Assembly: GCA_943736015.1 (NCBI GenBank)
Contig: OX031058.1
Location: 16,827,001 to 16,891,000 of the forward strand
Origin: Tridacna crocea
Lineage: Eukaryota; Mollusca; Bivalvia; Cardiida; Cardiidae
Length of the DNA stretch: 64,000 nucleotides
Reading direction: 5' to 3'
The notes under the pieces are model-generated. The model worked only from the letters and a program-made list of their open reading frames with translations, was not told where the DNA came from and made no database searches. This document shows positions 302 through 63,660 of this stretch, one piece after another (position 1 is the first letter of the stretch; each line of letters starts with the position of its first letter). The position numbers and the translations under genes were made by a program.

Positions 302-529
302 TTAACACTTTACCAAACAATCCCTGGTTTTTACTACCCTGAGAAAGAAGCCTTTTGAAAACATTGTGGGAAAAGGAGAAAATGCTGGTAACCAGCATTT
401 TCTCCTTTTCCACAATGTTTTCTGCCCTGCTGGAAACAAATTTCGATTTTTGAGTAATATCTTTTGTGTCATCTGCAAGTGCTTTCAATTTGTAGTTGTC
501 TACAATTTTGTCGTTTGGTAAAAGGTTAA
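302..529 (-). mobile_element. TH element, complete
   Basis: TTAA at 302-305 and 526-529; short arm first (ccctggtttttactaccctgag). The hairpin spans about 355-425 with nearly perfect arms and the core ctggtaaccag. The right end ggtaaaaggttaa carries one extra A. Confidence 0.85.
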
Positions 530-905
530 CCAGATGACAAAATTTTAGATATTTTCAAAATGTCACCATTTACTGACCACCATTTAAATAATGATAGGGA
601 GTTACCTTTGACAGGGCAGACATGGAGAAAATGCTGGTTACCAGCCCTTTCCTTCTTTCACACACTAATTATTTTCGGGTTAAAACTCTGGATTAAGTGG
701 TACATGGTCCACATTTATCCACACAATCCAACTTTTAATGACTTCATGAAGAAGCCTTTTGAAAATGTTGTCGAAAAAGAAGAAAATGTTGGTAACCAGT
801 TTTCTACTCTCTCACAGACAAATCCCACTACTTGAGCAACATTAAGTTTGTCACCCACAAAATTAATGCTATGGAAGACATGTCTAAAATTCTCTCCTGT
901 GGTGG
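526..905. mobile_element. Two decayed TH elements
   Basis: 526-695 starts ttaaccagatgacaaaattttag and keeps the core gctggttaccagc. 700-905 starts with the short-arm text cacacaatccaacttttaatgac and keeps gaaaatgttggtaaccag. Ends and stems are eroded, so boundaries are approximate. Confidence 0.55.
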
Positions 906-1712
906 AGGGATAAGACACATAGAGATATTATCTCTGATGAATCAGACTGCAGTATTCCTAGCACAAAATGACTTAATTGCCTCACATGTGCACTATGGAA
1001 AGCCATTTCCAATTTAGCTAGAATGGTCAGTTATGGTCAGTGGTCACTGTGGGTTCAGAACAATAACCCCACTAATCTAATCATCACTGACCAATGACCA
1101 CAATATTATGATATTGATATTTCAGAAGGCAGGGAACGATAGGGGTCATTAAGGTCACCAAAAACTGCTAACATGGTTTTGCACTAAAGTCCCATAGATA
1201 TGATTGTTTCTTAGTCACCCATCCTGCAGTTTACTTGATGGTAGTTTTATGTTCATGGGATACACAAATCAAAAGTGTCAGACTTGGAAACAAGATATCA
1301 AACTTCCCCCATCAAATATTTACCATATAAGGGGAATTTTATCACCAAGAAAACATAACAGCAATAAGAGTTTCCCTAAATTTTTTTCTTTAAGTTTATT
1401 GTACCATACCATAACAAATAAGCCTTAGTTGTGCTCTTACTGGAATATATGGACATAAACATTTTGATACCATCAACCCTCAAATCAGAAAAAAATGTTT
1501 TGGACAATATTGTATTAGTATTTGGACAATACTGCATTAGTATTGTCAGAAACTTTTTTTTCTGTTTGGAAAGTTGATGCTATCAGAATGTTAATGTCCT
1601 AATATTCCAGAAAGATACTTAGATACTTGATCTAAGCTTCCTGAGGTCCTTTTGGAAAGCTTTGTTGGACAAACAGTAGGCATAGATGCTTGATTTTTTT
1701 GAATTTGTACTG
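906..1712. other. Non-coding, small repeats only
   Basis: No gene is seen. Around 1499-1545 the phrase ttggacaata-ttgyattagta is repeated twice in tandem. Around 1027-1105 the words ggtcagt/ggtcact recur on both strands as a weak imperfect palindrome. Confidence 0.4.
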
Positions 1713-1716
1713 CTAA

Positions 1717-2258
1717 AGGTGGCCCTCCAGATTTTGGGACAAAAATTTTACAAAAATACAACAAAAAAATCACTCTTATACTCCCAAAGCCTTACAATAT
1801 CCATCCATAAAACCACACTAGTCGAAAACCATCCGACAACATGAGAAATTAGAGATTTACTACAGCCACAGTCGACACCGAAGAGAAACATGGTCTATTT
1901 TTACATCAGCAGCTCGCTCATTTATATACCGAAAATATACAGACGAAGCTTCAAACATAGCGTCCGCAGTTCTAGACATTTTGGAAAATTATTACATGTA
2001 TGTAATTATGGAATTTAAGAGTCATTAGTCACGTGCCAGTCACTTAACATTCCCACAATGCTTTTTTGAATTTTGGCGGGAAATCTAAAAATAGCTTAAG
2101 AGGCTACGTAGCCTTTTAAGGGAATACCATCCAAAAAATTTATTTTGTGATTTTATGATTCTTAATTATTGATGCTTTGTATTGTTTTTTCATATTAATT
2201 TCAGTGATATATATTTTTTTAAATTTGGTGCTATATGAAAAAATCTAAATACCCACCT
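1717..2258. mobile_element. Second TTAA-flanked family, copy 1 (542 bp)
   Basis: The element begins aggtggccctccag and ends taaatacccacct, giving short inverted ends AGGTGG/CCACCT. Flanks are ctaa (1713-1716) and ttaa (2259-2262). The body is collinear with 7693-8194 and 26414-26953, including aagaggctacgtagcctttt and cgtgccagtcactt. It has no ORF that looks like a transposase, so it is a non-autonomous element, by its target probably piggyBac-like. Confidence 0.75.
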
Positions 2259-2483
2259 TTAAGGCAGGCCTGACAGTTTTATTTTGAGGGCGAGTATTTT
2301 GGGGTTCCCATGATGGTGCTTCTTTCATGGAACACTGATGCATTTACTCTACCAAACTATAAATTTTTTGTCTTGTGCAAATTCATATGGGTTAAACATA
2401 TTTATTTTACATCAATTGAGAAACAAGTTCTTACAACACTTATTCTAATCTCTTTCGATTCTGCTTCCTGCAAACTGCACCAG

Positions 2484-2590
2484 TACTCGCGCTGAATGTG
2501 TGGGCCGATGAAAAATCCCTTAGTTGACACTCGCTCCCTGGTATTGAACTCAGGACCTTATGGTTACAAGGCCGACGCTCTACCTCACAC
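2484..2590 (-). mobile_element. tRNA-derived SINE head fragment
   Basis: On the minus strand the text reads as a tRNA-like promoter: a B-box-like stretch (rc of tattgaactcaggacc) preceded by an A-box-like gtagagcgtcgg. No tail is recognisable. Confidence 0.5.
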
Positions 2591-2638
2591 TAAAAGTACG
2601 AATTCACAGAAGTTGCATACAGCAAACTTAACAGTGAC

Positions 2639-2834
2639 TTAACTCTTTACCACACAATCCCGACTTTTAACAACCCAAAGAAAGAAGCCTTTTAAAAACA
2701 TTGTAGGAAAAGGAGAAAATGCTGGTAACCAGCATTTTCTCCTTTTCCCACAATGTTTTCTACCCTTTATTTTGTCCTCTACAAATGCTTTGAATTTGGA
2801 CAGGTCAAAAATTTTGTTGTTTGGTAAAGAAATA
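2639..2834 (-). mobile_element. TH element, worn right end
   Basis: TTAA at 2639-2642, short arm first, full hairpin with core ctggtaaccag at about 2720-2730. The right end reads ggtaaagaaataa instead of gtaaagagttaa. Confidence 0.8.
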
Positions 2835-2975
2835 AAACTTTACATATGCTGATGAAAGGGTAGGAAATATTGTGTGAAAAGGATTAAAATGTTGGTTATC
2901 AGCATTTTCTCCTTTTTCCATGATATTTTCAAAAGCCTTCTTTCTCAGGGTTGCTTGGTGATGTATAAAAGTTAC
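2835..2975 (+). mobile_element. TH element fragment
   Basis: Hairpin with core tggttatcagca, then the short-arm text ttttcaaaagccttctttctcagggttg; both termini are lost. Confidence 0.6.
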
Positions 2976-3220
2976 TATACAAAACCTCTTCATCTGTTGT
3001 TCATTCCACCCAAAAAACAGTTACAACTAAATAATACCACCTGGTCACAGTTTATATGACAATAGCTTGGGTCAAAATCTAGTGAAGTAAGCTTAAAATG
3101 TGCAAAATTATTATCGTGGAGAAGTTTTCTTTATTGCTCCTAAAAAAGAAAAGTGAAAAAAAAAACTGTAGGAACAACTTTCATCTGTGTGTCTGGTCTG
3201 TTGAGAAAGCACTGTGACCA

Positions 3221-4902
3221 ATACATGGATCCGTGGAAATCGATATTTGACCAATCAGGACATCGCATTTATTCTACCCGATGTCCTACCTTGGTTTCTG
3301 CTATTTCGGCTCACAAATAAACGACTGTTAACGTTGGAAGAATGCATTTCTCTTTATTTATGTTGTGTTTTTAACGTTTGAATTTAAAAAAAAAGCTTAA
3401 AATATGGGCTTTGCGAACGTGTACCGATGACGTGAGATCACGCAGAGGCTATAGACAAGTTTAAATTGTGATGATTACTGAAAATTTGAACTTATGCAAA
3501 GAGTTGATCAGCGCTGGATAATGGATTAATTCAAAGTATTCTATAATTTTCCCTCTCTGAAAGAGAAAACTGAAAAAGAGGTAAAAATAGACCTATATGA
3601 AGTATTAATAAAAAAAAATACTTTTACTTGAATATTAAACTTGTTCAATAACCTATGCACATCCAAAAAGTGGCCGCGTAACTTGTTTCCAATGTTTCAA
3701 TTTGACATTAATCTTAACCCATGGTGCATGAAGAACATGCTGAATGTGTACTGGGATCGTATATACGATCTCTGATGTGTAGATATAGATCAGATTTCAA
3801 ATTACATGATGATTAGTCTTGGATTTAAAGAACCTGCTGATTACAATAAGCAGTTTGGCGTGTAGTTCTTCCTCACTAGGAGTATATTTCAATTTTAAAA
3901 AAAGTCTAACTTCTGATGTGGTGGAACTTGGAAATTTTTCTTTTGACTTGATGTTTTAACCGTTTACCACATAACACCGAGTTTTAACGACATGTAGAAA
4001 GCTTTTAAAAGCATTGCGGATGAAGGAGAAAATGCTTGTAACATTCATTTTATCCTTTTCTCACTGTGTTTTGCGCTCTTTCAAAAACAAATTTCAATTT
4101 TTGAATCATTTATTTTGTTGTCTGCAAATATTTGAGTTTGGATTGCTCTAAAAATTTTGTAATTTGGTGACGAGTTTAAATGCATTAGCACATCTGCACA
4201 TTAGCACAAAGGGTGTGTTGGTAAACTGTTAATTTGATAGGAAGTGTGTTTGATTGCGAAGCAAATTACCGCTCTAATCAACTTGACCACCCGTTGTCAT
4301 CAGTATATCATATACTACCGTCAATGATATTAACAATTTTCTTAATTGACAACACACTTAACGCATTTTATAATCATCAGACAACCCTTTTCCCCCTAAC
4401 ATAATATTGAAATTTTTCATTAACTTAAACGTCTCTGTTGAATCAGACATTCTATAAACTTTTCGAAAGGCTGGTAATTCAGTGTTATTTAATTTGGTAT
4501 GATGCTGAGATGACTTTACTAGCCCAACGAAAGCAATAAGTATCGTTAATTCTATTACTCTGTGGCCAAACGGAGATTTGTTGATGTTTTTTATATGTTC
4601 AAATTTTTGTTTAAACATGTAAATCTGTTATATTGTACGTCGCCCCCGTAATTCGCCCTTTTAATACATCTCCGTTTGTAAATTAGTTAAGCATCTTTAA
4701 ATTGCCTACTGAGAATTTATCATCGATAGAAATATATGATTAAAGTACTTTTTCAGGAATTTTATTAAGAGAAACAGGCATGACAGCACGATTTAAGTAG
4801 CCTATCTGCTATACTGTATATGTATTGACTACGTTTGTTTGTGAGACCTTGGCAACAGTAACTAAGGTAGTCTGTTTATCTTATCGCCACGGATCCATGT
4901 AT
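3221..4902. other. Region bounded by a 16-bp inverted repeat
   Basis: The 16 bases at 3221-3236 (atacatggatccgtgg) recur exactly inverted at 4887-4902. Between them lie unique AT-rich sequence and one TH copy. It may be a decayed transposon, but no target duplication is visible. Confidence 0.3.
3956..4179 (-). mobile_element. TH element, diverged
   Basis: TTAA at 3956-3959 and 4176-4179. The hairpin is eroded: the centre reads aaatgcttgtaacattcatttt, so core pairing is partly lost. Confidence 0.75.
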
Positions 4903-5129: not shown

Positions 5130-5965
5130 GTTCTCCTTCTTCATGGATTCCCAGTGCTGCCTAGCCATAAACATACATACCCACAAAAGAAAAACTAAAC
5201 TATCTTTATGGCTTCTGAGTCCCTACTTGTAACTATATATTATCTTCATGACCTCCCAGCACTTACTTGTTACTTATATACCTATAACATCTTCTTTGCT
5301 TCCCAGTGTTTCCCTTTTACCATACCATTTTCATGGCTTCCAAGTGCTAACACATAAATATAGCTATCTTCATGGCTTCAAAGTGCTTACCTATAACTAT
5401 TCAATCCTGAGACATGGCTTCCCAGTCCTTACCTATAACTGTAGTATCTTCATGGCTTCCCAGTCCTTACCTGTAACTATACTATCTTCATCGCTTCCCA
5501 GTGCTTCCCTTTTAACACATCATTTTCATGGCTTCATAGTGCTTACCTGTAACTATACTATCTTCATCGCTTCCCAATGCTTCCATTTTAACATACTATT
5601 TTCATGACTTCCCAGTGCTTACCTGGAACTGTACTATCTTTATTGCTTTCTAGTGATTCCCTTTTAACATTCTATTTTCATGACTTCCCAGTGCTTACTT
5701 GTAATTATACTATCTTCATCGCTTCCCAATGCTTCCATTTTAACATACTATTTTCATGACTTCCCAGTGCTTACCTGGAACTGTACTATCTTTATTGCTT
5801 TCTAGTGGTTCCCTTTTAACATTCCATTTTCATGACTTCCCAGTGCTTAGCTGTAACTATACTATCTTCATCGCTTCCCTGTGGTTCCCTTTTAAGATTC
5901 CGTTTTCATGACTTCCCATTGCTTACCTGTAACTATACTATTTTCATGACTTTACTATGCTTACT
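5130..5965. repeat. Minisatellite, ~50-bp unit in ~152-bp blocks
   Basis: Imperfect tandem units such as catgacttcccagtgcttac and cttcatcgcttcccagtgc repeat for over 800 bp. The block with ttcccaatgcttccatttta recurs at about 5571 and 5723, a period near 152 bp, suggesting a three-unit higher-order repeat. The long reading frame at 5248-5607 is produced by the repeat. Confidence 0.8.
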
Positions 5966-7256: not shown

Positions 7257-7480
7257 TGAACCTTTTACTCCATAGATACTCATTTTGACGTATCAACAAC
7301 AGACAACTTTTGAAAACATTGTGGGAAAAGGAGAAATTGCTCGCAATGAGCAATTTCTCCTTTTCCCACAATGTTTTCCACTCAGTCAGATATTTGTATC
7401 CTCATTTGTCCATATTTTTGACATCATATCTTTATTTGCTGCCGAAGACCCTCAAATTTGCATATCAGGTAAAGAGTTAA
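7257..7480. mobile_element. TH-c subfamily element
   Basis: The right TTAA is at 7477-7480; the left is mutated (ttga). The left arm reads ccttttactccatagatactc, unlike the main family. The hairpin core is gctcgcaatgagc with paired arms (aaggagaaattgct/agcaatttctcctt), so core and arms differ together from the main family. Confidence 0.75.
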
Positions 7481-7551
7481 ACTCTTAAGAATGGCAATAT
7501 GTTAGACTGTTCCAATTTGAAAGCAGAAGCACACAACAAATTAAATAGGAC

Positions 7552-8432: not shown

Positions 8433-8500
8433 AAGTTAACTTGAGATACAAGTGAAGGGTGATCACTGATGAATCACATCAAGCCTCTCAAACAAGGGCC

Positions 8501-8728
8501 TTAACCCTTTCCCAAACGACAAATTTTAGACTCTTCCAAACTCAAAGAGGTTGCAGACGAGAATTTCAAATTTGATAAAAATGGCAGAAAGTTCTCCAAA
8601 TAGGTAGAAAACACTATGGGAAAAGGAGAAATTGCTCATTACGAGCAATTTCTCCTTTTTCCACAGTGTTTTCAAAAGACTAGTAATGCAGACACGTAAA
8701 AACAAGGGCTTGATTGGGAAAGGGTTAA
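8501..8728 (+). mobile_element. TH-b subfamily element, complete
   Basis: TTAA at 8501-8504 and 8725-8728. The termini are ccctttcccaaac/tgggaaaggg rather than ctttacc/ggtaaag. The hairpin core is gctcattacgagc with paired aaattgct/agcaattt arms. Confidence 0.85.
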
Positions 8729-9316: not shown

Positions 9317-9545
9317 TTATCCCATTACCACACAATAACTACTTTTGACGACCCTGAGAAAGAAGCCCTTAGAATACATTGTGGGAAAAGGAGAAAATGC
9401 TGGTAACCAGCATTTTCCCGTTTTCCCACAATTTTTTCTACCCTTCACAAAACAAATTTCAAATTTTCAGTCACTTTTATTTTGTCGTCTGCGAATGCTT
9501 TCGATTTGGACAAGCCTAAAATATTATAGTTTGGTAAAGAGTTGA
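9317..9545 (-). mobile_element. TH element, complete
   Basis: Ends ttat and ttga are mutated TTAA sites. The stem runs aaaaggagaaaatgctggt/accagcattttcccgtttt with one arm altered (cccg). Confidence 0.8.
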
Positions 9546-9627
9546 AGAACCGTTAGAACCACATTCTAAAACAACCAACTTAATCAAGAAGTAGACAGGT
9601 CCTTTGACATACAGAAAATGACAAATG

Positions 9628-15914: not shown

Positions 15915-16011
15915 GACAGAGATATGCTAATTGACTTTGATTTGGATTATTTTTTTCAGGGGAAAAAACAGAATACATTATTTTACTTGTTCAGAATTAT
16001 CTAGCCATGTA

Positions 16012-16241
16012 TTAACTCTTTACCACACAAGAAAATGTTAAACTGGTCCAAACTGAAAGCATTTGCAGACAACAAAATAAAGGTGACTGAAAAATTGGAA
16101 TTTGTTCTGGGAAGGGCAGAAAACACCGTGGGAAAAGGAGAAAATGCTGGTTACAAGCATTTTCTCCTTTTCCTACAGTGTTTTCAAAACGGCTTCTTTC
16201 TCAGAGGCGTCAAAAGTAGGGATTGTGTGGTAATGGGTTAA
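16012..16241 (+). mobile_element. TH element, complete
   Basis: TTAA at 16012-16015 and 16238-16241. Stem caccgtgggaaaaggagaaaatgctgg against its near complement ending ctacagtg. The 68-codon frame inside is a by-product. Confidence 0.85.
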
Positions 16242-17585: not shown

Positions 17586-17664
17586 TCGATAGGCGAGTGC
17601 AACACTATTCTAAGTGCCTGTACATTGTACAGGCACTTAGAATAGTGTTGCACTCACCTATCGA
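17586..17664. repeat. Long hairpin
   Basis: About 36-bp arms (cgataggcgagtgcaacact... and its complement) around the 3-base centre att at 17625-17627; one mismatch (gcgagt/actcac). A related hairpin is at 58683-58742. Confidence 0.75.
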
Positions 17665-18401
17665 AATAGACATGAGGGAGATGATCTGCCCTATTGGCAA
17701 GTCAAGGTACATACTGTTAAATATGTTAATGACAGCCCTATTGAAATATACGACCCATTAAAATGCACATAAAATGTAAATTATCCTTGACACAGACTAG
17801 CTTACTGTACATGTGATTCTCCAATATTTCATAGCTTGTCTCTTTGCTCCTTACCAATCCATCTTCAGTTTTAATGATAATAAGAGGAAAAAGGCTTCTG
17901 AAAAAAGAGGAAAAGGAGAAAACCAGCATTTTCTCAATTCTTGTAATGTCTTTTACCCTCTTAACCCTTTACCACACAATGACGACTTTTAACAACCCTG
18001 GGAAAGAAGCATTTTACAGGCACTTAGAATAGTGTTGCACTCACCTATCGAAATAGACATGAGGGAGATGATCTGCCCTATTGGCAAGTCAAGGTACATA
18101 CTGTTAAATATGTTAATGACAGCCCTATTGAAATATACGACCCATTAAAATGCACATAAAATGTAAATTATCCTTGACACAGACTAGCTTACTGTACATG
18201 TGATTCTCCAATATTTCATAGCTTGTCTCTTTGCTCCTTACCAATCCATCTTCAGTTTTAATGATAATAAGAGGAAAAAGGCTTCTGAAAAAAGAGGAAA
18301 AGGAGAAAACCAGCATTTTCTCAATTCTTGTAATGTCTTTTACCCTCTTAACCCTTTACCACACAATGACGACTTTTAACAACCCTGGGAAAGAAGCATT
18401 T
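17628..18401. repeat. Tandem duplication of 387 bp, two units
   Basis: 17628-18014 and 18015-18401 appear identical; even the frames at 17738-17929 and 18125-18316 (minus strand) encode the same 63 residues. The unit runs from the right arm of the hairpin above through a decayed TH copy into the first ~54 bp of a TH element, so the first unit ends in a truncated TH start (17961-18014). Confidence 0.9.
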
Positions 18402-18578
18402 TGAAAACATTTTGGGAAAAGAAGAAAATGCTGGTAACCAGCATTTTCTCCTTTTCCAAAAATATTTTCTACTCCATCAAAAAAAGATTGCACTGTTTTA
18501 ACCACATTGAAATTGTCATCTGTGAATGTTTTTTTAATTTGAACAAGACTTACAATTTGTCCCCTGGTAAAGGGTTAA
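18348..18578 (-). mobile_element. TH element, complete
   Basis: TTAA at 18348-18351 and 18575-18578; core ctggtaaccag. Its first 54 bp belong to the duplicated unit. Confidence 0.85.
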
Positions 18579-18689
18579 ACACAAAAGTAGTAACTGGAGC
18601 CAAAATGCATTTGTCTTCCTGAAATGCTTTTTATTTTGAGAAGTCTGAAGTCCGGTAAAGGGTTACTTGATTTTTTCTTCTTCTCTCAC

Positions 18690-19829: not shown

Positions 19830-20047
19830 TTAACCCTTTACAATCCCGAGTTTACACATGCCTGAAAGAGAAGTTTTTCGAAAAAATAATATGGGAAAAG
19901 GAGAAAACCAGCATTTTCTCCATTTCCCACAATATTTTCTATCCTATCAAAGACAAATTTCATCATTCGTGGCACATTCTTAATTGTCATCTGCAAATGC
20001 TTTGAGTTTGAATAAGTCTAAGATTTTGTCATGTGGTAAAGAATTAA
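19830..20047 (-). mobile_element. TH element, tandem with next
   Basis: TTAA at 19830-19833 and 20044-20047. Core partly deleted (ggagaaaaccagcattttctcc). Confidence 0.8.
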
Positions 20048-20273
20048 CCCTTTACCCCATAATGCATTTCTATGGTATCTCTGATTGACCCTAAATAATA
20101 GCAAGGATGAAGCTGTTTCTTATATGTGTATATGACAACTTTTGATAGCATAGAAAATATTGTGGCAAAAGGTGAAATTCCTCGTCCCATGCAATTTCAC
20201 CTTCTGCCACAATGTTTTCCAAAGGCTCCTACAAGCAATTCATAGAAATTAGTATCTATGGAGTAAAGGGTAA
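20044..20273. mobile_element. TH-c subfamily element
   Basis: Shares TTAA 20044-20047 with its neighbour. Ends ccctttaccccataatgc / ctatggagtaaaggg; arms ttgtggcaaaaggtgaaatt and aatttcaccttctgccacaa are changed on both sides relative to the main family, so pairing is kept. Confidence 0.75.
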
Positions 20274-22850: not shown

Positions 22851-23279
22851 AATAATATCCACCGACAGATCCATCAACACCCTAAGTTAGGGGTACTAAA
22901 TTTAGGCTATGCCAACCCACAAAATTTAGGCTGCTCCATATACTCTCACATTTTAATACTTAAGTCATAATGTCCATTAAATCGTCAAAATAATTTGCAC
23001 TTTTTGGTATAATTATGAATTTTGAAATATCTTATACATTGCATGCTTTGAAATGAATTTGTAACAGCCATTGAGATAGGGTGCTTAAAAAATTATGTCA
23101 AAGAAAACTGCTGTTCTGTTCTGTTCACATCTATTTTTTTGTTTGATATAGATTTAAGACTTGGGTAAAAGCAAGTTACATGCATGTACAAATATGACAT
23201 AAAGGGAGTTCAGGATGGAGTTGTATTTCAGTATAGACATTTTTCTGCCACAATTCTTGACTGTAAAACCTCAAACTTG

Positions 23280-23730
23280 TTAACTCTTTATCAATAGACA
23301 AAATTTCAAACTCTTCAAAACTGAAAGCATTTGCAGAGGACAAAATAAATGTAGCTCAAACAATGATTTCTGTCTTTGACAAAGTAGAAAATATTGTGGG
23401 AAAAGGAGAAAATGCTGTTTACAGCATTTTCTCCTTTTACCACAATGTTTTAAAAAGCCACTGTCCTAAGGGTTGTTAACCCATTACCACTCAATCCCTA
23501 CTTTTGATGCCCCTGAGAAAGAAGCCTTTTGAAAACACTGTAGGAAAAGGAGAAAATGCTGGTAACCAGCATTTTCTCCTTTTCCCACAGTGTTTTCTAC
23601 CTTTTCCAGAACAAATTCCAATTTTTCAGTCACCTTTAATTTGTCGTGTGCAAATGCTTTCAATTTGAACCAGTCTAACATTTCGTTGTTTGGTAAAGAT
23701 TTAAAGTTCAGGATTTTGTGGTAGATTGTG
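23280..23730 (+). mobile_element. TH element split by a TH element
   Basis: Left part 23280-23479 ends inside the short arm (ctaagggttgttaa); the right part 23705-23730 resumes agttcaggattttgtggtag. Confidence 0.75.
23476..23704 (-). mobile_element. TH element nested in a TH short arm
   Basis: TTAA at 23476-23479 and 23701-23704. The stem has cactgtagg/cccacagtg: both arms carry the ACTG/CAGT variant. Confidence 0.85.
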
Positions 23731-24511: not shown

Positions 24512-24531
24512 AAAACAAGGTGGGAAAGGGG

Positions 24532-24759
24532 TTGACTCATTACCAAACGACAATATTTTAGGCTTGTCCAAATCAAAAGCATTTGCAGACGGCAAAATAA
24601 AAGTGATTGAAAATTTGAAATTTGTTTTGTGAAGAGTAGAAAACATTGTGGAAAAGGAGAAAATGCTGGTTACCAGCATTTTCTCCTTTTCCCACAATGT
24701 TTTCTAAAGGTTTCTTTCTCAGGGTCGTCAAAAGTAGGGATTGTGTGGTAATGGGTGAA
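24532..24759 (+). mobile_element. TH element, complete
   Basis: Ends ttga and tgaa; near-perfect stem; core ctggttaccag. Confidence 0.85.
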
Positions 24760-31668: not shown

Positions 31669-32026
31669 CTTATTCATATAAAATTAGCAATATTCTTGAA
31701 GGATGTTTTTGATCTTGTCTGAAAATTTGTTTAACCCTTTCCCAAACAAGCCCTTATTTTTACGTGTCTGCAGTATAAGTCTTTTGAAAACACCATGGGA
31801 AAAGGAGAAATTGCTCGTAACGAGCAATTTCTCCTTTTCCCACAGTGTTTTCTACCCTTTCTGAGAACTTTCTGCCATTTTCTACAAATCAAAAATTGTC
31901 ATCTGCAAACTCTTTCAGTTTGGAAGGGTCCAAAATTTGTCGTTTGGGAAAGGGTTACACCCTTATTCATATAAAATTAGCAATATTCTAGAAGGATGTT
32001 TTCGATCTTGTCAGAAAATTTGTTTA
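31669..32026. repeat. 65-bp direct repeat flanking a TH element
   Basis: 31669-31733 and 31962-32026 (cttattcatataaaattagc...) differ at about three positions and bracket the TH copy at 31731-31958. Confidence 0.8.
31731..31958 (-). mobile_element. TH-b subfamily element, complete
   Basis: TTAA left, ttac right; termini ccctttcccaaac; hairpin core gctcgtaacgagc with near-perfect arms. Confidence 0.85.
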
Positions 32027-33437: not shown

Positions 33438-33855
33438 TTAATTCTTTACTAAGTGACAAAATTTTAGACTTTAAGACTTGCTAAATATTTGCAGACATTA
33501 ACCCTTTACCAGACGACAAAATTTTAGCTCTGTCCAAATTGAAAGCATTTGCAGGCAACAATTTCAGTGTAGCTCAAATGGTGCAATTGTTTATTGATTA
33601 TGTACAAAACATTGTGGGTAAAGGAGAAAATGCTGGTTACCAGCATTTTCTCCTTTTCCCACAATGTTTTCAAAAGGCTTCTTTTCCATGGGCGTCAAAA
33701 GTAGGGATTGAGTGGTAAAGAGTTAAAATAAATGTAGCGCAAGTGATTATTTCTGTCTTTGACAGGATAGAAAACAGTGTGGTAAATAGAAAATGCTGGT
33801 TGCCAGCATTCTCTCCTTGTCCTATGTTTCAAAAGGCCTTCTTCTTTTAGGTTAA
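33438..33855 (+). mobile_element. TH element split by a TH element
   Basis: Long arm 33438-33497 to gcagaca; continues at 33727 with aataaatgtagcgcaag and its own hairpin (gctggttgccagc). Confidence 0.7.
33498..33726 (+). mobile_element. TH element nested in a TH long arm
   Basis: TTAA 33498-33501 and 33723-33726; near-perfect stem. Confidence 0.85.
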
Positions 33856-35100: not shown

Positions 35101-35230
35101 CATGTTGCTAAAATGATTGGAATTTTCTACGAAAGATTGGAAAACTTTGTTGGATAAGGAGAAAATACTGGCTATCAGCATTTTCTCGATTCCCCCACAA
35201 TGTTTTGAAAAGGCTTCTCTAGCAGCGTCA

Positions 35231-35454
35231 TTAACACTTTACCAAACGCCAAAATTTTAGACTTGTCCAAATTGAAAGTATTTGCAGACGACAAATAAAA
35301 GAAACTCAAAAAGTGAAATTTGTTTCCAGCAGGTTAGAAAACATAGTGAGAAAAGGAGAAAATGCTGGTTACCAGCATTTTTCTCCTTTTCCCACAATGT
35401 TTTCAAAAGGCATCTTTCTCAGGGTCGATAAAAGTTTGTGTGGTAAAGGGTTAA
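35231..35454 (+). mobile_element. TH element, first of nested pair
   Basis: TTAA 35231-35234 and 35451-35454; the stem has one extra T (gcatttttctcc). Confidence 0.9.
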
Positions 35455-35678
35455 CCCATTACCACACAATCACTACTTTTGACGCCCCTGAGAAAGAAGC
35501 CTTTAGAAAACATTGTGGGAAAAGGAGAAAATGCTGGTAACCAGCATTTTCTCCTTTTCCCACAATGTTTTCTACCCTTCACAAAACAAATTCAAGTTTT
35601 AAGTCACTTTTATTTTGTTGTCTGCAAATGTTTTCCATTTGAACCAGTCTAAAATATTGTCGTTAGGTAATGGGTTAA
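35451..35678 (-). mobile_element. TH element, second of nested pair
   Basis: TTAA 35451-35454 and 35675-35678; perfect core; opposite orientation to its partner. Confidence 0.9.
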
Positions 35679-35799
35679 ACCTGGGAATGTGTGGTGAAGT
35701 TTTAAAGTAAAAATCATGTGGTATGGGGTCATCTCAAAGACCATGAAATAATAAAAATTGTTTGATTCAGCAATGAAATACCCACCTGTAGTGATTTCT

Positions 35800-36227: not shown

Positions 36228-36510
36228 TTAACCCTATACCAAATGGCAAAATTGTAGGCTGGTCCAAATTGAAATCACTTACAGTTGACACAATGAACGT
36301 AACTCAAAAAATTGAAATTTGTTCCCAGCAGGATAGAAAACATTGTGGGAAAAGGAAAAAATGCTGGTTACCAGCATTTTTTCCTTTTCCCACAGTGTTT
36401 TCTATCCTTCCCAGATCAAATTTCAATTTTTCAATCACCTTTATTTTGTCGTCTGCAAATGCTTTCAATTTGAAACAAGTATAAAATTTTGTCATTTGGT
36501 AAAGAGTTAA
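36228..36510. mobile_element. Fully palindromic TH element (two long arms)
   Basis: TTAA 36228-36231 and 36507-36510. Both sides carry the long arm: left ccaaatggcaaaattgtaggctgg, right (inverted) ccaaatgacaaaattttatac, each with gcagacgacaaaat-like and gaaatttg words. It is 283 bp, longer than normal copies, which have one short arm. Confidence 0.85.
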
Positions 36511-41718: not shown

Positions 41719-41835
41719 ATGGTACTAAGGCCATTTCTTTCGATTGATCTTCATCATGGTACTTTTAAAATCAACCTTAGTCCTGTAGCTAATTGGTTGA
41801 TTGACTGAATGATTGGAATGTGGCAACCCAACCTT

Positions 41836-42065
41836 TTAACTCATTACCACACGAGAAAATTTTAGACTGGTCCAAATTGAAAGCATTTGCAGACGACAAA
41901 ATAAAGGTGACTAAAAAATAGAAATTTGTTCTGGGAAGTGTATAAAACACTGTGGTAAAAGGAGAAAATGCTGGTTACCAGCATTTTCTCCTTTTCTCAC
42001 AGTGTTTTCAATAGGGCTTCTTTCTTAGGGGCGTCAAAAGTAGGGATTGTGTCGTAATGGGTTAA
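41836..42065 (+). mobile_element. TH element, typical reference copy
   Basis: TTAA 41836-41839 and 42062-42065. Order: terminal ctcattaccac; long arm with ttttagactggtccaaattg and gcagacgacaaaat; stem cactgtggtaaaaggagaaaatgctgg; single unpaired T; return arm; short arm ggcgtcaaaagtagggattg; end gtaatgggttaa. Confidence 0.9.
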
Positions 42066-42292: not shown

Positions 42293-42522
42293 TTAACCCA
42301 TTACCACACAATCCCTACTTTTGACGCCCCCTGAGAAAGAGGCCTTTTGAAAACACTGTGGGAAAAGGAGAAAATGCTGGTAACCAGCATTTTCTCCTTT
42401 TCACACAGTGTTTTCTACCCTTCACAAAAGAAATTTCAAATTTTCAGTCACTTTAATAATGTCGTCTGCAAATGCTTTCAATTTGGACCAGTCTAAAATA
42501 GTGTCGTTTGGTAATGGGTTAA
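42293..42522 (-). mobile_element. TH element, complete
   Basis: TTAA 42293-42296 and 42519-42522; both stem arms carry the ACTG/CAGT variant. Confidence 0.9.
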
Positions 42523-42542
42523 TCCTTGACAAAACATGTCCC

Positions 42543-45576: not shown

Positions 45577-46189
45577 GGGTTAAATAGATTCACAGACAGG
45601 TTTCTCCATGTCTTGAGCCCATTTCATTCTTCATCCTTTGGGTATTTAAAATTTACATTGAATAATGTTTACATTAACACCTTGTATGTTACTGATAACC
45701 AGTCTGTCTTCAATGGGAATGGTTCATGCCACATTCAATGCTTCAACAGAAAACGAAATTGTAGATTTGTCCATACTTAAAAAGGCCTTTATACTCATTT
45801 TGAAGTCTTAACTCATTTTGTATTTATTTTATCAAAATATAGTCATTCTTATATATTTGTGCCAAATATTGCGCCTGGCGATTGCAAGGTTGCGTAGATT
45901 ACGGTCAATAGAAAATGCATTTCGCTGAGTATCCGACTGTAGGCGGACACCAACGATAAATCTCCGTGATGCACCGCCATTGTTTACAGCTTCGATCATC
46001 AGCCAGTTTCCTTCTGACCAATTTTCGGTTTCTAATACTAACCTCCGTGTTTCTTTTTTTAGTTACACCATATATGTCAGTAATTTATCCTTGTGTACAC
46101 AAAGGACAGATTTCTGGACCATTCTAGTTTTTTTTTGAAATTGAACAGCGTTTCTGCTCACCAGCTGTAGACGGGCATCTTTAAAGGTT
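45577..46189. other. Unique stretch with CpG-richer segment
   Basis: 45845-46060 has many more CpG words than its surroundings. On the minus strand a 43-codon frame (45980 down to 45849) opens with aaacaatggcgg, a good Kozak context. No domain recognised; could be a 5' exon or a transposon piece. Confidence 0.3.
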
Positions 46190-46478
46190 TTGCAGACAAC
46201 AACTTTTGAATTTGGTTCTAATTCTGGGATTTGTCTGTGAAAAAGTAGTAAATTTTGTGGGAAAAGGAAGAAATGCTGGCTACCAATAGTGTCTCCTTGT
46301 TCTCCTAGGTTTTCTACCCTTTCAGACACAAATTCCAACATTTAAGCCCCATTTTCATTGCTTCTTTGATGGTTATGGAAGAAATGATACCTACAAACAG
46401 TTTCTCCTTGTTCCTCTATGTTGTCTACCAATTTCAGACACAAAAATCCAACATTTAAGCCATATTGTCATTGCTTGG
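46190..46478 (+). mobile_element. TH remnant with ~110-bp tandem duplication
   Basis: A decayed TH hairpin (aagaaatgctggctaccaatagtgtctcc) and the following caaattccaacatttaagcc...cattgctt are repeated: about 46266-46362 and 46378-46478. Confidence 0.55.
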
Positions 46479-47705: not shown

Positions 47706-48386
47706 TTAAGATGTCTCTGGCCTATAAATGCTTCAAATATCTCTCTTTAATTAGAGTATTTTAGTTATGTTGCTATAAAAGGTTTCAAAATATTTCGAGA
47801 CAGAAATATGTGCAAAAAGTGTTTCAGATGTGGAATACAAAGTTGCACCCGTTTCTCTGCCAAGTGTTTCAGAAATTCTGTAACACATCATTTTATGTAT
47901 TTTGCTTCCCAAAGTGTGTCAGAAATATGGCGACCATATGAAAAAGAGCATTTCAGATATTTTGCCAAAAAATTATCTCTGTGTTAAAATGCTGGTGACC
48001 ATCATTTTTTGCTTTTCTCACAATGTTTAAAAAAAGTGGGGAAAAGAGATTGAGTATAGGAAAGGATTATACCCTCAACAAATCATCTTTCCATATTTTT
48101 TTGTTAATATGCATTTACACAGTTGCAAGCCTATTTCAAAATACAAAATCATTTTAGGAATTTACGCTCAAGAAAGCATTGACATCATTTCAGAACAGTT
48201 TACAGATAGTAGATTTTATCACATGATAAAGCATGTCATCAGTTTGTCAGACATACACTGATCCCCATCAATCATCAAATAAATTAGGGATTCTGCTCAC
48301 ATTATAATAATGTCTGAAAAGAGTACCTGTAACAGCTATCATGGCTTACTTAGTTTGAGAAGATTTAAATCACAAAATGATAGAGT

Positions 48387-48615
48387 TTAACCCTTTCCCA
48401 AACGACAAACTTTTGGACTAGGCCAAATTGAAAGCATTTGCAGACGACAATTCAACTCTTGCTGAAAAGATGATTTCTGTCTATAATAGGGTAGAAAACA
48501 TTGCGGGAAAAGGAGAAAATGCTGGTTACCAGCATTTTCTCCTTTTCCCACAATGTTTTCAAAAGGCTACTTTTCCAGACCCGTAAAAACCAGGGATTGT
48601 TTGGGAAAGGGTTAA
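48387..48615 (+). mobile_element. TH element, complete, b-type ends
   Basis: TTAA 48387-48390 and 48612-48615; termini ccctttcccaaac/gggaaaggg of TH-b, but the a-type core gctggttaccagc: a mosaic of the two subfamilies. Confidence 0.9.
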
Positions 48616-49143: not shown

Positions 49144-49588
49144 TCTATTACCTCTATGTCGATGATAAAATGACAGAAGGGTATTACCTCCATGTCGATG
49201 ATAAAATGACAGAAGGGTATTACCTCCATGTCGATGATAAAATGACAGAAGGGTATTACCTCCATGTCGATGATAAAATGAAAGAAGGGTATTACCTCTA
49301 TGTTGATGATAAAATGACAGAAGGGTATTGCCTCAATGTCTACCTCCATGTCGATGATAAAATGAAAGGATATTACCTCTATGTTGATGATAAAATGACA
49401 GAAGGGTATTTTCTCTATGTCGACGATAAAATGACAGAAGGGTATTACCTCTATGTCGATGATATGTTGATGATAAAATGACAGAAGGGTATTACCTCTA
49501 TGTCGACGATAAAATGACAGAAGGGTATTACCTCTATGTCAATGCTAAAATGACAGAAAAGTATTACCTCTATGTCGATGATAAAATG
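49144..49588. repeat. 36-bp minisatellite, about 12 copies
   Basis: Unit tattacctcyatgtcgatgataaaatgacagaaggg. Being a multiple of three, it leaves an open frame repeating YYLHVDDKMTEG on the plus strand (49020-49481) and another on the minus strand. The last unit runs straight into TH long-arm text (gacagacttgtccatgttgaaag). Confidence 0.9.
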
Positions 49589-49775
49589 ACAGACTTGTCC
49601 ATGTTGAAAGCATTTGCAGATGACAAAGTACATGTGGCCAGTAGTATTGCTTTAGAATGATAAAAAACATTGTATGAAATGGATGAAGTGCTGGCTGGAA
49701 AACATTTTTGACTTTTCCATATTTTATTAGCCTTTTCCTAGTGGTCAGTAAAACCCAAGATTGTTTGGTATAGAA
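49589..49775 (+). mobile_element. TH element, left tip replaced by minisatellite
   Basis: acttgtccatgttgaaagcatttgcagatgac, eroded hairpin, right text caagattgtttggtatag. Confidence 0.65.
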
Positions 49776-54261: not shown

Positions 54262-54490
54262 TTAACCCATTCCCAAACAATCCCTGGTTTTTACGACCCT
54301 GAGATAGAAGCCTTAAGAAAACATTGTGGGAAAAGGAGAAAATGCTGGTAACCAGCATTTTCTCCTTTTCCCACAATGTTTTCTACCCTGCTGGATACAA
54401 ATTTCAATTTTTGAGTTTCAATGATTTTGCCGTCTGCAAGTGCTTTTCAATTTGGACCAGTCTAAAATTTGACGTTCGGTAAAGGGTTAA
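54262..54490 (-). mobile_element. TH element, complete
   Basis: TTAA 54262-54265 and 54487-54490; apparently perfect stem; tandem with the TH-c copy. Confidence 0.9.
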
Positions 54491-54530
54491 ATTTTGACAG
54501 GTCAAAAAGTCTATGTGGGAAAAACTGGAC

Positions 54531-55800: not shown

Positions 55801-56090
55801 CATCCTCGGATACCCCGGCGTCTCCCTATTTGCTACGCTACATCGAACCCTGGGACAATTAATTGAATTTCCCTCGCTTTACTGCTGGCCGAATGCTGGC
55901 TTTTCATTGGTTCCATCATCAGAATGCTGGCTTTTCATTGGTTCCATCATCATTTTGTGATGGGCGAGTGGACTGTACGCTATGACGTTTCGTATCGATT
56001 TTCGGCAGCTGATTCAAAGTTTTATTAGTCAATTGTCCCAGGGGTCGATGTAGCGAAGCAAATAGGGAGACCCCGGGGTATCCGAGGATG
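55801..56090. mobile_element. MULE-like MITE, 290 bp
   Basis: ~59-bp inverted ends (catcctcggataccccgg...) with few mismatches. attttgtcc flanks both sides (55792-55800, 56091-56099), a 9-bp duplication as in Mutator-like elements. A 31-bp unit gaatgctggcttttcattgg... is duplicated inside (55891-55921, 55922-55952). Confidence 0.85.
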
Positions 56091-56950: not shown

Positions 56951-57059
56951 CTCTTATTTCTGCAATTAAATTGTCTGTTGGATTTATTCTATTTGTACCA
57001 GACCACCAAATTTTATACAAGTTTATATCAATTGAAAGAATTGAAAGACTAAACGCATC

Positions 57060-57287
57060 TCAACCCTTTCCCAAATGATAAATTTTGGACCCTTGCAAAC
57101 CGAAAGAGTTTGCAGACGACAATTTTAGATTTGGAGAAAATGGCAGAAGGTTCTCGAAAAGGGTAGAAAACACTGTGGGAAAAGGAGAAATTACCTGTTA
57201 CGAGCAATTTCTCCTTTTCCCACTATGTTTTCAAAAGACTTTTACTGCAGACATGTAAAAACCTGGGCTTGTTTGGGAAAGGGTTAA
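57060..57287 (+). mobile_element. TH-b subfamily element, complete
   Basis: tcaa left, TTAA right; core cctgttacgagc; same arms as the copy at 8501-8728. Confidence 0.85.
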
Positions 57288-59169: not shown

Positions 59170-59310
59170 GCAACTAAAGGTGGCATTACAGTCAGTGTAT
59201 ATCATGATCTGTAAAGTCTGATCTTTGATTCACAATGTCAACTTTGTTTTGACATTCTTCAAACGAGCAACCTTGAAATTACAATTCATTTGATTCTTAT
59301 TTCTCGCTGA
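59170..59310. repeat. GATC-palindrome repeat
   Basis: tatatcatgatctgtaaagtctgatctttgattcacaatgtcaactttg, with the usual gagcaaccttgaaatt following. Confidence 0.6.
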
Positions 59311-60297: not shown

Positions 60298-60485
60298 GCT
60301 CCAGATAAGAAGGAATGATGGTATTCTAAATCTATTATTTCTCCTTGAAATCCTATGTTGTAGGTACTCAGTAGAATCATCTCATTGAGACAACTCTAAT
60401 GAGTACCCACAACATAAGGTTTAGTGGAGAATAATCAATATGTTTAATTTGAAATCAAAAGTCACTCCATCTATTTGGAGCTCTC
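60298..60485. mobile_element. Palindromic MITE, copy 1
   Basis: Ends agctccagataag / atctatttggagct; central inverted repeat tatgttgtaggtactcagtag / ctaatgagtacccacaacata. Confidence 0.65.
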
Positions 60486-60496
60486 AGAGTGTAAGA

Positions 60497-60613
60497 ATCA
60501 TTATCGAAGAAGAAGAAATTGCTGGTTACTAGCATTTTCCTCATTTACCATAATACTATCAAAACCTTCATTTCTAAGGGTTGTTAAAACACAGGATTGT
60601 CTGGTAAAGGGTT
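60497..60613 (+). mobile_element. TH right-part fragment
   Basis: gaagaagaaattgctggttactagcattttcc, then the short arm to ggtaaagggttg. Confidence 0.6.
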
Positions 60614-60631
60614 GCAGATGGCACTTTCCAC

Positions 60632-60718
60632 TGCAAGTTGTCATTTTCATAGAGACAGCTTGTGTGTCCTGGGTTTCACCAGTGCTAGGCCAGGACGTCA
60701 AAGTTTCTAGCCTGTTGA
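60632..60718 (-). mobile_element. SINE-A fragment
   Basis: gtcctgggtttcaccagtgctaggccaggacgtc, the inverse of the SINE-A mid-body. Confidence 0.45.
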
Positions 60719-60886
60719 CATTTTGACTAAAAACCAAGTTTCTAAAAGGGGAATATCATGTTGGTCTTCAAATTGTGAATACCATAACATCATGAGATAC
60801 AAAACAAAGTATCTTTTAGCTTGAATTTGCCCAAAAATAGACCAGCAGGCGCTTCAGACAGAATTTTGTTGTTTGGTATGTATGAG

Positions 60887-61125
60887 TTAACTCTTTACCC
60901 AACAACAAAATGTTAGGTTTGTCCAAATCGAAAGCATTTGCAGACAACAAAATAAAAGTGACTAAAAATTTGAAATTTCTTTTGTGAAGGGTAGAAAGCT
61001 TTGTGGAAAAAGGAGAAAATCCTGGTAACCAGCATTACCAGCATTTTCTCCTTCTCCCAGAATGTTATCTAACAGCTTCTTTCTCAGGTTCCTCAAAAAG
61101 TAGGGATCCTGTGGTAATGGGTTAA
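60887..61125 (+). mobile_element. Intronic TH element next to the exon
   Basis: TTAA 60887-60890 and 61122-61125; the core contains a short duplication (taaccagcattaccagcat). It ends only 23 bp before the 5' splice site of the exon at 61149-61411. Confidence 0.85.
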
Positions 61126-61148
61126 AACCAAATCATAAATGCACCTAC

Positions 61149-61411
61149 CTCATATGTGGTCCATTAGATGAGCTGACTTTCCTTGTAGATGGTGGCAGGT
61201 TGATGGATCCAATCAGATTGGGCAGGTTTGTAGCTAGAGCTGTAGAGTTATCACTTTGAGCTTTCTGTATACTTTGTACCATACTAACAGCTTCTCTCTT
61301 GAGCTGATTTATATGGGTGTCACAGACCTCACACTGACCACCAGATGTAAACCTGTACCCATTCTCTGAAACCTGTAGCTTCTCTTCAAAGTTTTCAATG
61401 GATTCGATGGG
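61149..61411 (-). CDS. Internal exon, KIF26-like kinesin N-terminal region
   Basis: On the minus strand an open 263-bp segment lies between a textbook acceptor (ttttctattttcag, 61425-61412) and donor (ag|gtaggt, 61148-61143). It is open throughout in the frame starting at its first base and ends two bases into a codon. The predicted 87 residues start PIESIENFEEKLQVSENG. Residues 25-42 read GQCEVCDTHINQLKREAV, a Cys-x-x-Cys followed by a His and a basic helix; the rest is Ser/Asn/Pro-rich. From memory of the family, vertebrate KIF26A/B have a very similar Cys-x-x-Cys-x-Thr-His ... Arg-Glu-Ala segment upstream of an atypical, non-ATPase kinesin motor involved in signalling. No ATG-initiated gene model fits; upstream exons should lie beyond 61425 and downstream ones below 61140, but I found none in the window. 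The exon call is firm, the family name tentative. Confidence 0.7.
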
Positions 61412-61567
61412 CTGAAAATAGAAAAATCATTTATTGTATCTCCAAAATGCATGCATAATTATGAAAAAATTAATATGGTTTTGTAAGCCTTTGCACTCTT
61501 TCACTAAACAAATCTTTGCCAGGATAGTCTATGTAACCTTTCCGTTACTTTACCTTATACATCATTT

Positions 61568-61652
61568 TAGCAAACAATCCCATGTTTTATTAACCCTTAA
61601 AACCAAAAGGCTTTGGAAAACATTATGGGAAGAGGAGAAAATGCTGGTAGCC
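61568..61652 (-). mobile_element. TH half-element
   Basis: agcaaacaatcccatgttttattaaccc, stem ttatgggaagaggagaaaatgctggtagcc, then divergence near the hairpin centre. Confidence 0.55.
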
Positions 61653-61809
61653 ATTTTGTGAAAGCATTAGCTGCATTTTGGTGTATAGAAAAATAGAATT
61701 TTAATCATAGGTCATGAACATCGCATGTATATGTAAATAACTAGAGGAGTAAGCAAGGGCATGAAAAGTCAGTTACTCTACCAATTGGACTGCATGCTAA
61801 CTCAGGGGT

Positions 61810-61998
61810 TCCAGATAGGAGGGGGGGTGATAGTATTCTAAAATCATTATTTCTTTTTTAAATCCTATGTTGTGGGTACTCATTAGAACCGTCTCAATGA
61901 GGCAATTCTAATGAGTACCCATAACACAGGGTTAAACTGAGAATAATTAATATTTTCAATTTTGTAATCAAAATCACCGGCTCTGTCCGGAGCTCAGG
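61810..61998. mobile_element. Palindromic MITE, copy 2
   Basis: Collinear with 60298-60485; central arms cctatgttgtgggtactcattagaa / ttctaatgagtacccataacacagg. Confidence 0.7.
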
Positions 61999-62578
61999 TA
62001 CCTGTTATCTTACAAGTTGTTGAGGAGTAGCAATTTGATCCATCATTCTGATGCAGATTTCTTCTCTGGTCTAAGATTTAGTGCAAAAAAGCAAGGTTTG
62101 GGTGTACTACTTAAAACTAAGGGTAGAACGAGTTGTTTGCAAGCCTGTATGACAGTATTGGTTCTAGTCAGTACCATCACAGTAAGCAGACTTGCTACTC
62201 AAATCCACAACAAACATTTTGTAATTTTGTATCCAGATATTTGACGATAATTCTATAGTCTTTTTACAATTCAACAGTATATGGTACGGCTTGAAAATAA
62301 ACTCCCTGTTTAACAGGGGAAAAAAAAAGGTGACTCATACTCTGTAAATAAGGATTTTAATGTAAAGCAACAAGTAACAACCTCATATGTTTGCCTGTGC
62401 AGTCCTGGCAAGCTGACATGAATCAAAACTCTTTGCTCTTTGTAAAGTTTATGCAATTCCAAGGACAAGAACTATACTACCAAATGATTCCATCAGTTGT
62501 AATACACAACGACTTTATGGGTCCATAGCTGTAATGATGATGATTTCTTGGTATAATGTATCACTCAAAAGCATTAAT
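61999..62578. other. No supported gene
   Basis: A 75-codon plus-strand frame at 62017-62244 shows no domain; searched by eye for further exons of the 61149 gene without success. Confidence 0.3.
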
Positions 62579-62715
62579 TTAACCCATTACCATACAATGC
62601 CTACTTTTGATGACCCTGAGAAAGAAGCCTTCAGAAAACATTGTGGGAAAAGGAGAAAATGCTGATAACCAGTATTTTCTCCTTTTTCCAGAATGTCTTC
62701 TACAGTTAAAGCCCT
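62579..62715 (-). mobile_element. TH element, right end missing
   Basis: TTAA 62579-62582; core gctgataaccagt; ends after gaatgtcttctac. Confidence 0.7.
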
Positions 62716-62847
62716 TTTGCCGCAGCACAGCTCATTATACTGTACTCTCAATTTTTACCCCTCCATTTTAGCTCTTTTCTAGTAGCAAAGTATTTGGTGC
62801 AAACTCTAAGATAGCGGTCTGTTCAGCCTGATTTCTGAAGGAATTAC

Positions 62848-63054
62848 TTAACCCTTTACTCCATAGATACTCATTTCTACACATTGCTTGTAGGTGCCTT
62901 TGGAAAACATTGTGACGTGCAATTTCACCTGTTGCCACAATGTTTTCTATGCTATCAAAAGGTGTCATATACACGTAAGAAACAGCTTCATCTTTGCTGT
63001 TATTTAGGGTCAAATAGAGATATCATAGAAATGCCTTATGGGGTAAAGGGTTAA
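62848..63054. mobile_element. TH-c subfamily element
   Basis: TTAA both ends; ctttactccatagatactc / ccttatggggtaaaggg. Left stem arm shortened (aacattgtgacgtgcaatttcacctgttgccacaatgtt). Confidence 0.75.
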
Positions 63055-63162
63055 CGCAGGCAATAGGTGCATTTGGTTTTTTTTTTTTCTTTTCTTGACT
63101 GCTCCCACAAAATGATATCATTTTGTCCTAAATGTTTCAGTTTTTTCTTAGAGACTCTTTTC

Positions 63163-63366
63163 CGGATGACAATGTTTCACAGACTTGTCCAAATTGAAAG
63201 TTATTGTAGATTATGTATTAAATGTGGCTCAGATGAAGACATTTGATATCTAAAGGGTAGACAACAATGCGAGAAAAGGAGAAAATGCTGCTCTCTGGCA
63301 TTTTCTCCTTTTCCATCAATGTTTTTGGGATCATTTGGCCAAAGGTGTGACTCAAAGGGTAAAGGC
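63163..63366 (+). mobile_element. TH element, decayed ends
   Basis: ccggatgacaatgtttcacagacttgtcc at left, tcaaagggtaaagg at right; hairpin core gctgctctctggc. Confidence 0.6.
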
Positions 63367-63538
63367 AATTCTTACAGAGATCTCTCACAAAGTGCCTCAA
63401 ACATATATCAATTTAATGGATGTTTTTGCACACTCAGCTCAGAAAACCTTTTACAGAGTCTCTAATTGTTACAGCTTTGACAAAACTGATTCTTCTGTAC
63501 CATAAGTGCTTGAGACAGCCCTATTTGGTTTGAAACAC

Positions 63539-63660
63539 TCAACCCTTTACCAAACAATCCATGGTTTTTACAACCCTCGTAAAGAAGGTTTTTGATTTAA
63601 AACCAATTTCCCCCCAGTGCTTTCTACCCTATCTAAGGAAACTCCGGACCCCCAGTCCCC
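63539..63660 (-). mobile_element. TH element, mostly lost
   Basis: tcaaccctttaccaaacaatccatgg and gtgctttctaccctatc; no hairpin. Confidence 0.5.

Follow-up and report, generated by a model that had tools for sequence, protein, structure and literature searches.

A hairpin element at TTAA sites of Tridacna crocea, probably a piggyBac-type MITE, with an estimated million copies and a palindrome that changes in pairs

The described elements closest in kind to the one reported here are the CMITEs of Acropora corals, miniature inverted-repeat transposable elements (MITEs) that, as far as the available text of PMC2872659 describes them, resemble it in their TTAA duplications and tips of the CCCTTT type, in sharing a genome with piggyBac-like autonomous elements, and in an internal region better conserved across families than the terminal inverted repeats (TIRs). 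A further parallel, also drawn by description, is the Angel MITE of zebrafish, a stem-and-loop element with a fold-back amplification model (Izsvak et al., as presented in the part of PMC12628747 available). The present element recurs throughout a 64,000-bp stretch of the T. crocea genome (hereafter the window) and is given the working name TH, for TTAA hairpin MITE, its parts being a short arm (L), a palindrome (P) and a long arm (R). Xenopus T2 (Kolobok) MITEs, which are reportedly long-lived, share its TTAA target and have different tips. By the same partial description, CMITEs are ∼100 bp long and A. millepora is estimated to have 1,600 of them, whereas TH is 229 bp long with about a million; CMITEs form full-size tandem arrays, whereas TH copies abut in mixed orientation; and the TIR of CMITE family I is that of AmiPB1, whereas no such partner was found for TH (PMC2872659). 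The text of that paper contains no word beginning with hairpin or palindrom. We consider it probable that TH is a non-autonomous piggyBac-type MITE mobilized in trans, whose central palindrome is a conserved cis module with its symmetry renewed by fold-back or conversion.

Iterated nhmmer searching from the copy at position 302 (E≤1e-3) gave 138 non-overlapping matches in the window, 71 on the plus and 67 on the minus strand, covering 24,251 bp or 37.9%; five Markov-shuffled windows gave none. An earlier reading made from the letters alone (the sequence-only reading) had correctly recognized the family, although it put the extent slightly too low, at some 100 copies filling between a quarter and a third of the window. 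At least 90% of the model is covered by 77 of the 138 matches and 99 have E≤1e-20, while a few represent related families (family B and a lone variant, Table 1). A later scan that combined the window with other loci returned 134 window copies, because E-values scale with the amount of sequence searched. The 229-bp consensus consists of TTAA, a 51-bp L, a 67-bp P, a 103-bp R and TTAA (225 bp plus one target-site duplication), and P is a stem of exactly 33 pairs around one central base, so that the anatomy previously described (∼225 bp, TTAA flanks, tips, a long and a short arm, the 33-pair stem) is recovered in full. Folded as RNA, the stem reaches −53.2 kcal/mol (z −14.9). The tips are CCCTTTACC at the 5′ end and CYCTTTACC at the 3′ end, and the TIRs are imperfect (CCC(T/A)TTACC versus CYCTTTACC). 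At the 3′ tip, 88 copies have T as the second base and 43 have C, hence a frequent departure from CC[C/T]T. Divergence from the consensus (Kimura two-parameter distance, 80 window copies) ranges from 8 to 39% with a median of 17%. TH is short, homogeneous and non-coding, as piggyBac-type MITEs are. No transposase was found in the minority of window frames scanned with Pfam (one translated stretch and 10 open reading frames), and none of the genome matches listed for PF13843 (piggyBac transposase) falls in the window. Rfam gave no match at the gathering score, and a tRNA search and a palindrome scan of viral contigs both returned nothing.

TH duplicates TTAA on insertion. Of 97 5′ ends, 61 have this tetranucleotide close by, as do 51 of 94 3′ ends, where chance would give ∼10% (about six-fold and five-fold enrichment, respectively), and among 63 window copies with both termini aligned the exact TTAA is kept in 44 at the 5′ end, in 35 at the 3′ end and in 28 at both. 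When the flanks of 96 insertions were joined and continuous matches were sought, 26 sites gave one, many of which merely reflect neighbouring TH copies; three of the four inspected are clean. The copy at L028:3731-3959 lies within one unit of a local tandem repeat that has three unfilled units, each with a single TTAA; the insertion at L004:1501-1730 is matched by an unfilled relative in L014; and the window copy at 23476-23704 sits in the internal TTAA of another TH, the joined flanks of which form continuous TH. The joined site of the window copy at 33498-33726 is not clean. TH is assigned to the piggyBac-type MITEs because of its target site, tips and size, and the ends, the tips and the single-TTAA empty sites all support the earlier proposal of a gene-less, TTAA-targeting element of this type.

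Abutting copies have one TTAA, or the remnant of one, in common. Among abutting pairs in the window, 13 keep both ends intact and are arranged head-head (4), tail-tail (3) and head-tail (6), and 15 further pairs have one intact end, while random use of TTAA predicts 20 pairs (for 100 insertions) to 33 (for 138). Since abutting pairs are no commoner than random use predicts and their orientations are mixed, tandem duplication or special clustering was ruled out as the source of the TH density, which looks like heavy filling of TTAA sites. Very recent activity is unsupported: the closest pair of copies (0.5%) probably lies in a larger duplicated repeat and the other nearest pairs differ by at least 2.7%. 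An exact match to 104 bp of the main TH subfamily occurs at 27 genome sites.

The host genome (1,048.8 Mb in 31 contigs) was sampled in 10-kb stretches, twenty in all, taken from six contigs (C1-C6) at a spacing fixed in advance. These 200 kb contain 190 TH copies with 17.2% coverage (0 to 54% per stretch), and bootstrapping over stretches gives a coverage of 11-24% and 0.63-1.40 million copies genome-wide. We therefore estimate that TH has about one million copies and makes up about one sixth of the sampled genome, a spread that goes beyond the window-only view of the sequence-only reading. A 31-bp hairpin core pattern has 245,726 genome sites, with none for its reversed control; 43 were observed in the sample versus 47 expected from the genome count, and the scaled estimate is 1.09 million TH copies. 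TTAACCCTTTACC occurs 66,634 + 66,849 times in the genome and its reversed control 28 + 20 times. All these counts take in fragments and related families. The window was ruled out as a unique hotspot, as 2 of the 20 spaced stretches are denser, although it has about twice the mean density. Density along the genome is very uneven, with no TH match in three of the 20 stretches (L013, L014 and L023). Another 10-kb stretch, L011, contains a tandem array with a unit of ∼1.67 kb and six units visible, in each of which the same TH-like copy recurs with its short arm and palindrome and an unrecognised long arm, and here the MITE is carried within a larger repeat.

The palindrome changes more slowly than the rest of the element. 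In 72 window copies, identity to the consensus is 90.7% in P, whereas the arms reach 79.5-79.8% and the TIRs 84-86%, and in a tree of 123 copies the internal branches carry 0.78 changes per site in P versus 3.9 in the arms. The ratio of P to arm distance in copy pairs is ∼0.7 when they are close, a value inflated by binning on arm distance, and 0.45 when they are distant. This slow change in sequence speaks for a function of P. Clustering separated a subfamily, A9 (7 copies, 3 of them in the window), that has the TIR CCCTTTCCCAAAC at both ends and three palindrome pairs altered on both sides. Family B (14 elements; 10 long-arm matches in the 200-kb sample) has the layout of TH with the TIR CCCTTTACYCCATA. 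Its palindrome is 85% alike to that of TH (z 13), the differences being four pairs altered on both sides, one G-U step and another central base, while the L arms are 61% alike (z 4) and the R arms 51% (z 2.1). PMC2872659 defines piggyBac-type MITEs by TIRs 12-19 bp long and tipped by CC[C/T]T, to which A9 and B conform and main TH does so imperfectly, and the internal region is kept across main TH, A9 and B in spite of their different TIRs, as in CMITEs. Within the palindrome arm, the string CCTTTTCC-CACAAT shows a likeness to the 5′ TIR CCTTTACCACACAAT (score 20, shuffle p 0.009), and none was found between the 3′ TIR and the palindrome arm (p 0.42); TH is perhaps assembled from TIR-like pieces nested in one another.

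The two sides of the palindrome do not change independently. Among 160 unique gapless palindromes there are 126 complementary changes on both sides versus 43.8±7.9 when permuted, and the 146 A-type palindromes alone give 75 versus 35.8±6.7. In 38 hand-chosen rows, both-sided change occurs at 11 pairs and in 64 cells, versus 19.3±3.1 in shuffled and 2-7 in slid comparisons. Of the genome sites with the core pattern, the first 100 in order, which all come from near the start of contig C1, were counted by hand and comprise 85 A-type, 12 B-type and 3 A9-type sites; the three free pairs are symmetric in 93 of these and A and B forms are mixed between sides in none. Apart from the one G-U step, all changes between the family consensus palindromes are paired. 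Shared ancestry accounts for part of this, and P evolves as a paired structure, its symmetry having been kept while the remaining element changed. Such compensatory change across families lies beyond what could be seen by the window-only reading.

Elements with exchanged arms are also present. Among 277 P modules in 264 kb (window and sample), 134 are L-P-R, one is L-P-L and two are R-P-R, with a recognised arm wanting on one or both sides of the remaining 140. The L-P-L form (L028:953-1129, 177 bp) has TTAA and recognisable tips, one R-P-R form is listed in Table 1 and the other (L021) is decayed; a weak R-P-R call at 46180-46360 in the window scan was not recovered in a stricter scan. Both forms would be expected from fold-back copying at P or from recombination between inverted copies at P, and together with the paired change they speak for fold-back copying or arm-to-arm conversion as the means by which symmetry is renewed. 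Fold-back copying of the Angel type would likewise give L-P-L and R-P-R.

PF13843 has at least 118 matches in the genome, a lower bound with 116 of 196 candidates scored, and many have open frames of ∼460-670 aa. Nineteen of these loci were read, and complete TIR pairs were found in three groups, all with TTAA flanks. PB1 (2.77 kb; four loci, 98.0-99.9% identical) has the TIR CCCTTTATATAC, PB2 (2.61 kb; L033 and L044, related at 75%) has CCCT(A/T)GTCATGC, and PB3 (2.69 kb; L034, with L037 having the same 5′ end) has CCCTTTCAGYGC; the remaining loci show no clear TIR pair. The proteins of all three match PF13843, and that of PB1 also matches piggyBat and piggyBac in the PDB. PB1-3 and TH have TTAA, CCCT tips and 4-7 tip bases in common, beyond which the TIRs differ: CCCTTTACC is absent from the TIRs of PB1-3, and neither a short-loop palindrome nor similarity to the TH arms was found inside them. 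As to the mobilization in trans that the sequence-only reading inferred, piggyBac transposase genes, many with open frames, do exist in the same genome, and matching ends were found in none of the three readable groups. A candidate 5′ end upstream of a transposase (L047, position 452) was rejected, being a complete TH copy. The partner of TH may have died out, may lie outside the loci sampled, or may tolerate changes in the TIR, which is what the available part of PMC2872659 argues for CMITEs.

According to the reading we favour, TH would be moved in trans by a piggyBac transposase and would have occupied TTAA sites in large numbers, both within its own copies and at their ends, until it made up roughly one sixth of the sampled genome. 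The 67-bp palindrome of TH would be kept as a cis module while the arms diverge, and could act on the DNA level in mobilization or copying, either by forming a cruciform or by offering a symmetric site for binding; strand fold-back or arm-to-arm conversion at the palindrome might renew the symmetry and would also yield L-P-L and R-P-R. Several results weigh against this proposal. No autonomous element with TH ends was found among the 19 transposase loci read of the 118 matches. In the 123-copy tree, terminal branches also carry fewer changes per site in P (6.9 versus 12.1-12.9), a deficit that dead copies should lack unless subfamily changes leak into terminal branches. Internal branches show only a small excess of paired change (four complementary doubles and one other, versus 0-1 slid), and terminal branches have 34 doubles (20 complementary and 14 not) versus 7-21 of any kind slid. 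The 14 B-type palindromes alone also give a small excess (51 versus 45.6±2.4), non-complementary double changes among the 160 palindromes number 56 versus 50.7 expected, and the permutation ignores relatedness, covariation being partly inherited by subfamilies. A stronger version, in which the hairpin core is a selected portable module of several TTAA MITE families with little else in common and fold-back copying or hairpin-assisted mobilization, in addition to simple cut-and-paste, drove the rise to about a million copies, is one we entertain only tentatively.

The symmetry might instead be the product of mechanics alone, with arm-to-arm conversion or fold-back copying maintaining a hairpin that has no function. 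The L-P-L and R-P-R forms are consistent with this, as are compensated pairs unique to single copies (for example L022:475-541 and L016:7296-7362), but unbiased conversion should leave the rate of divergence from the ancestor unslowed, whereas the palindrome has about five times fewer internal-branch changes per site and stays alike across families in which the long arms are near chance; this explanation seems to us rather doubtful. Slightly less probable still is selection on RNA, by which transcribed copies, for example intronic ones, would form long hairpins that supply small-RNA, editing or transposon-splicing pathways, escape them or turn them to use. Folding of the 33-pair stem gives −52 to −55 kcal/mol for main TH, A9 and B alike, G-U wobbles are present, TH copies lie near a KIF26 exon, and animals are reported to have an RNA surveillance route that the inverted repeats of DNA transposons set off (work cited in PMC13155455, from the part available). 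However, Rfam gave no match at the gathering score, and the palindrome is equally symmetric on both strands and conserved in primary sequence as well, as a DNA site would be.

A DNA site of a particular kind, namely a high-affinity site for the C-terminal domain dimer of a piggyBac-type transposase, placed asymmetrically to the two tips, is about as unlikely as the RNA explanation. It has a precedent in the cysteine-rich domain (CRD) dimers of piggyBac and piggyBat, which according to the available text of PMC11707139 bind palindromes of ∼12-19 bp near asymmetric ends, and the 5′-TIR-like string in the palindrome arm would fit it. Nevertheless, 67 bp far exceeds such sites, no palindrome or TH-like stretch was found inside PB1-3, the likeness holds for one of the two TIRs tested, and a score of 20 is not rare, the 3′ TIR reaching it against the reversed long arm. 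Membership in another TTAA superfamily such as Kolobok is very improbable. Kolobok elements duplicate TTAA too, and T2 tips are AGGRR-like, whereas those of TH are CCCTTT. Among the molluscs compared, Kolobok comes almost exclusively from bivalves (PMC10294476, in the part available), which favours this assignment, while CCCTT is given as the most conserved start of piggyBac TIRs in the accessible text of PMC10813416, which does not.

Representative copies and other features of the window are given in Table 1. In the whole-set scan the TH arm models left the arms of the lone variant unrecognised, and in the window scan its short arm gave a weak score (E 0.024). The KIF26A/B-like exon supports an animal origin of the window. 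The TH-dense region probably lies inside or beside a KIF26A/B-like gene, and some copies would then be within an intron of it. Positions 17623-18402 are a 387-bp tandem duplication with 99% matches, in which unit 1 has a TH copy cut after ∼55 bp and unit 2 continues into the full copy at 18348-18580. Minisatellites occur at 49146-49593 (36-bp unit), starting where a TH copy ends and yielding long open frames, and at 5282-5952 (38/76-bp unit). An unrelated inverted repeat at 55801-56090 has 60-nt arms, 95% complementary and 170 nt apart, with a 31-bp tandem duplication between them, and is perhaps another MITE.

Table 1. Features annotated in the window (positions in bp from its first base).
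Feature	Position	Strand	Evidence or score
TH family spread	302..63641	both	138 matches, iterated nhmmer
TH copy, near full length, TTAA at both ends, first copy of the sequence-only reading	302..532	+	221.5 bits
Central palindrome of the 302 copy; consensus there a 33-pair stem with one central base	357..423	+	
TH copy, full length	9317..9547	+	229.6 bits
TH copy, full length	16009..16241	-	232.1 bits
TH copy interrupted at internal TTAA by the 23476 copy	23278..23479	-	model 29-231
TH copy nested in internal TTAA of another TH copy	23476..23706	+	nhmmer, empty-site test
TH copy adjoining next TH copy	24530..24758	-	
TH copy, one TTAA in common with next copy, head to head	35229..35454	-	
TH copy, top score of window	35451..35681	+	241.2 bits
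R-P-R form, two long arms flanking palindrome, 283 bp, TTAA at both ends, recognisable tips	36228..36510		
TH copy, full length	41833..42065	-	228.0 bits
TH copy, full length	42293..42525	+	240.2 bits
TH copy, full length	48384..48615	-	229.7 bits
TH copy, full length	54262..54492	+	232.2 bits
A9 subfamily member (different TIR, compensated palindrome changes)	8498..8728	-	
A9 subfamily member	31731..31960	+	
A9 subfamily member	57058..57287	-	
Family B element, homologous palindrome, almost unrelated arms	20042..20273	-	
Family B element	62848..63057	+	
Lone variant with intact symmetric palindrome	7259..7482	+	
KIF26A/B-like kinesin exon	61148..61426	-	PF23081 E 3.7e-6; two relatives, 58 and 67% identity

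The kind of element to which TH belongs is already known, and judged by the open literature its compensated, family-crossing hairpin and its scale appear new. No account of such a hairpin or of its compensation, and none of a family this numerous, was found there, and an exact-string search returned unrelated papers only; the sequence-only reading, which knew of no described family with this hairpin, is not contradicted by that literature, although a named family may exist. Alu has ∼1.2 million copies and makes up 11% of the human genome, and TH, a single gene-less element of 229 bp, would rank with it in copy number. In the TH hairpin, compensatory change makes it possible to demonstrate base-paired structure within a MITE, and with about a quarter of a million core-pattern sites the reason for keeping the hairpin can be tested by counting. 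The origin of MITE success, whether in cis modules or in fold-back copying, is thus directly testable in one genome.

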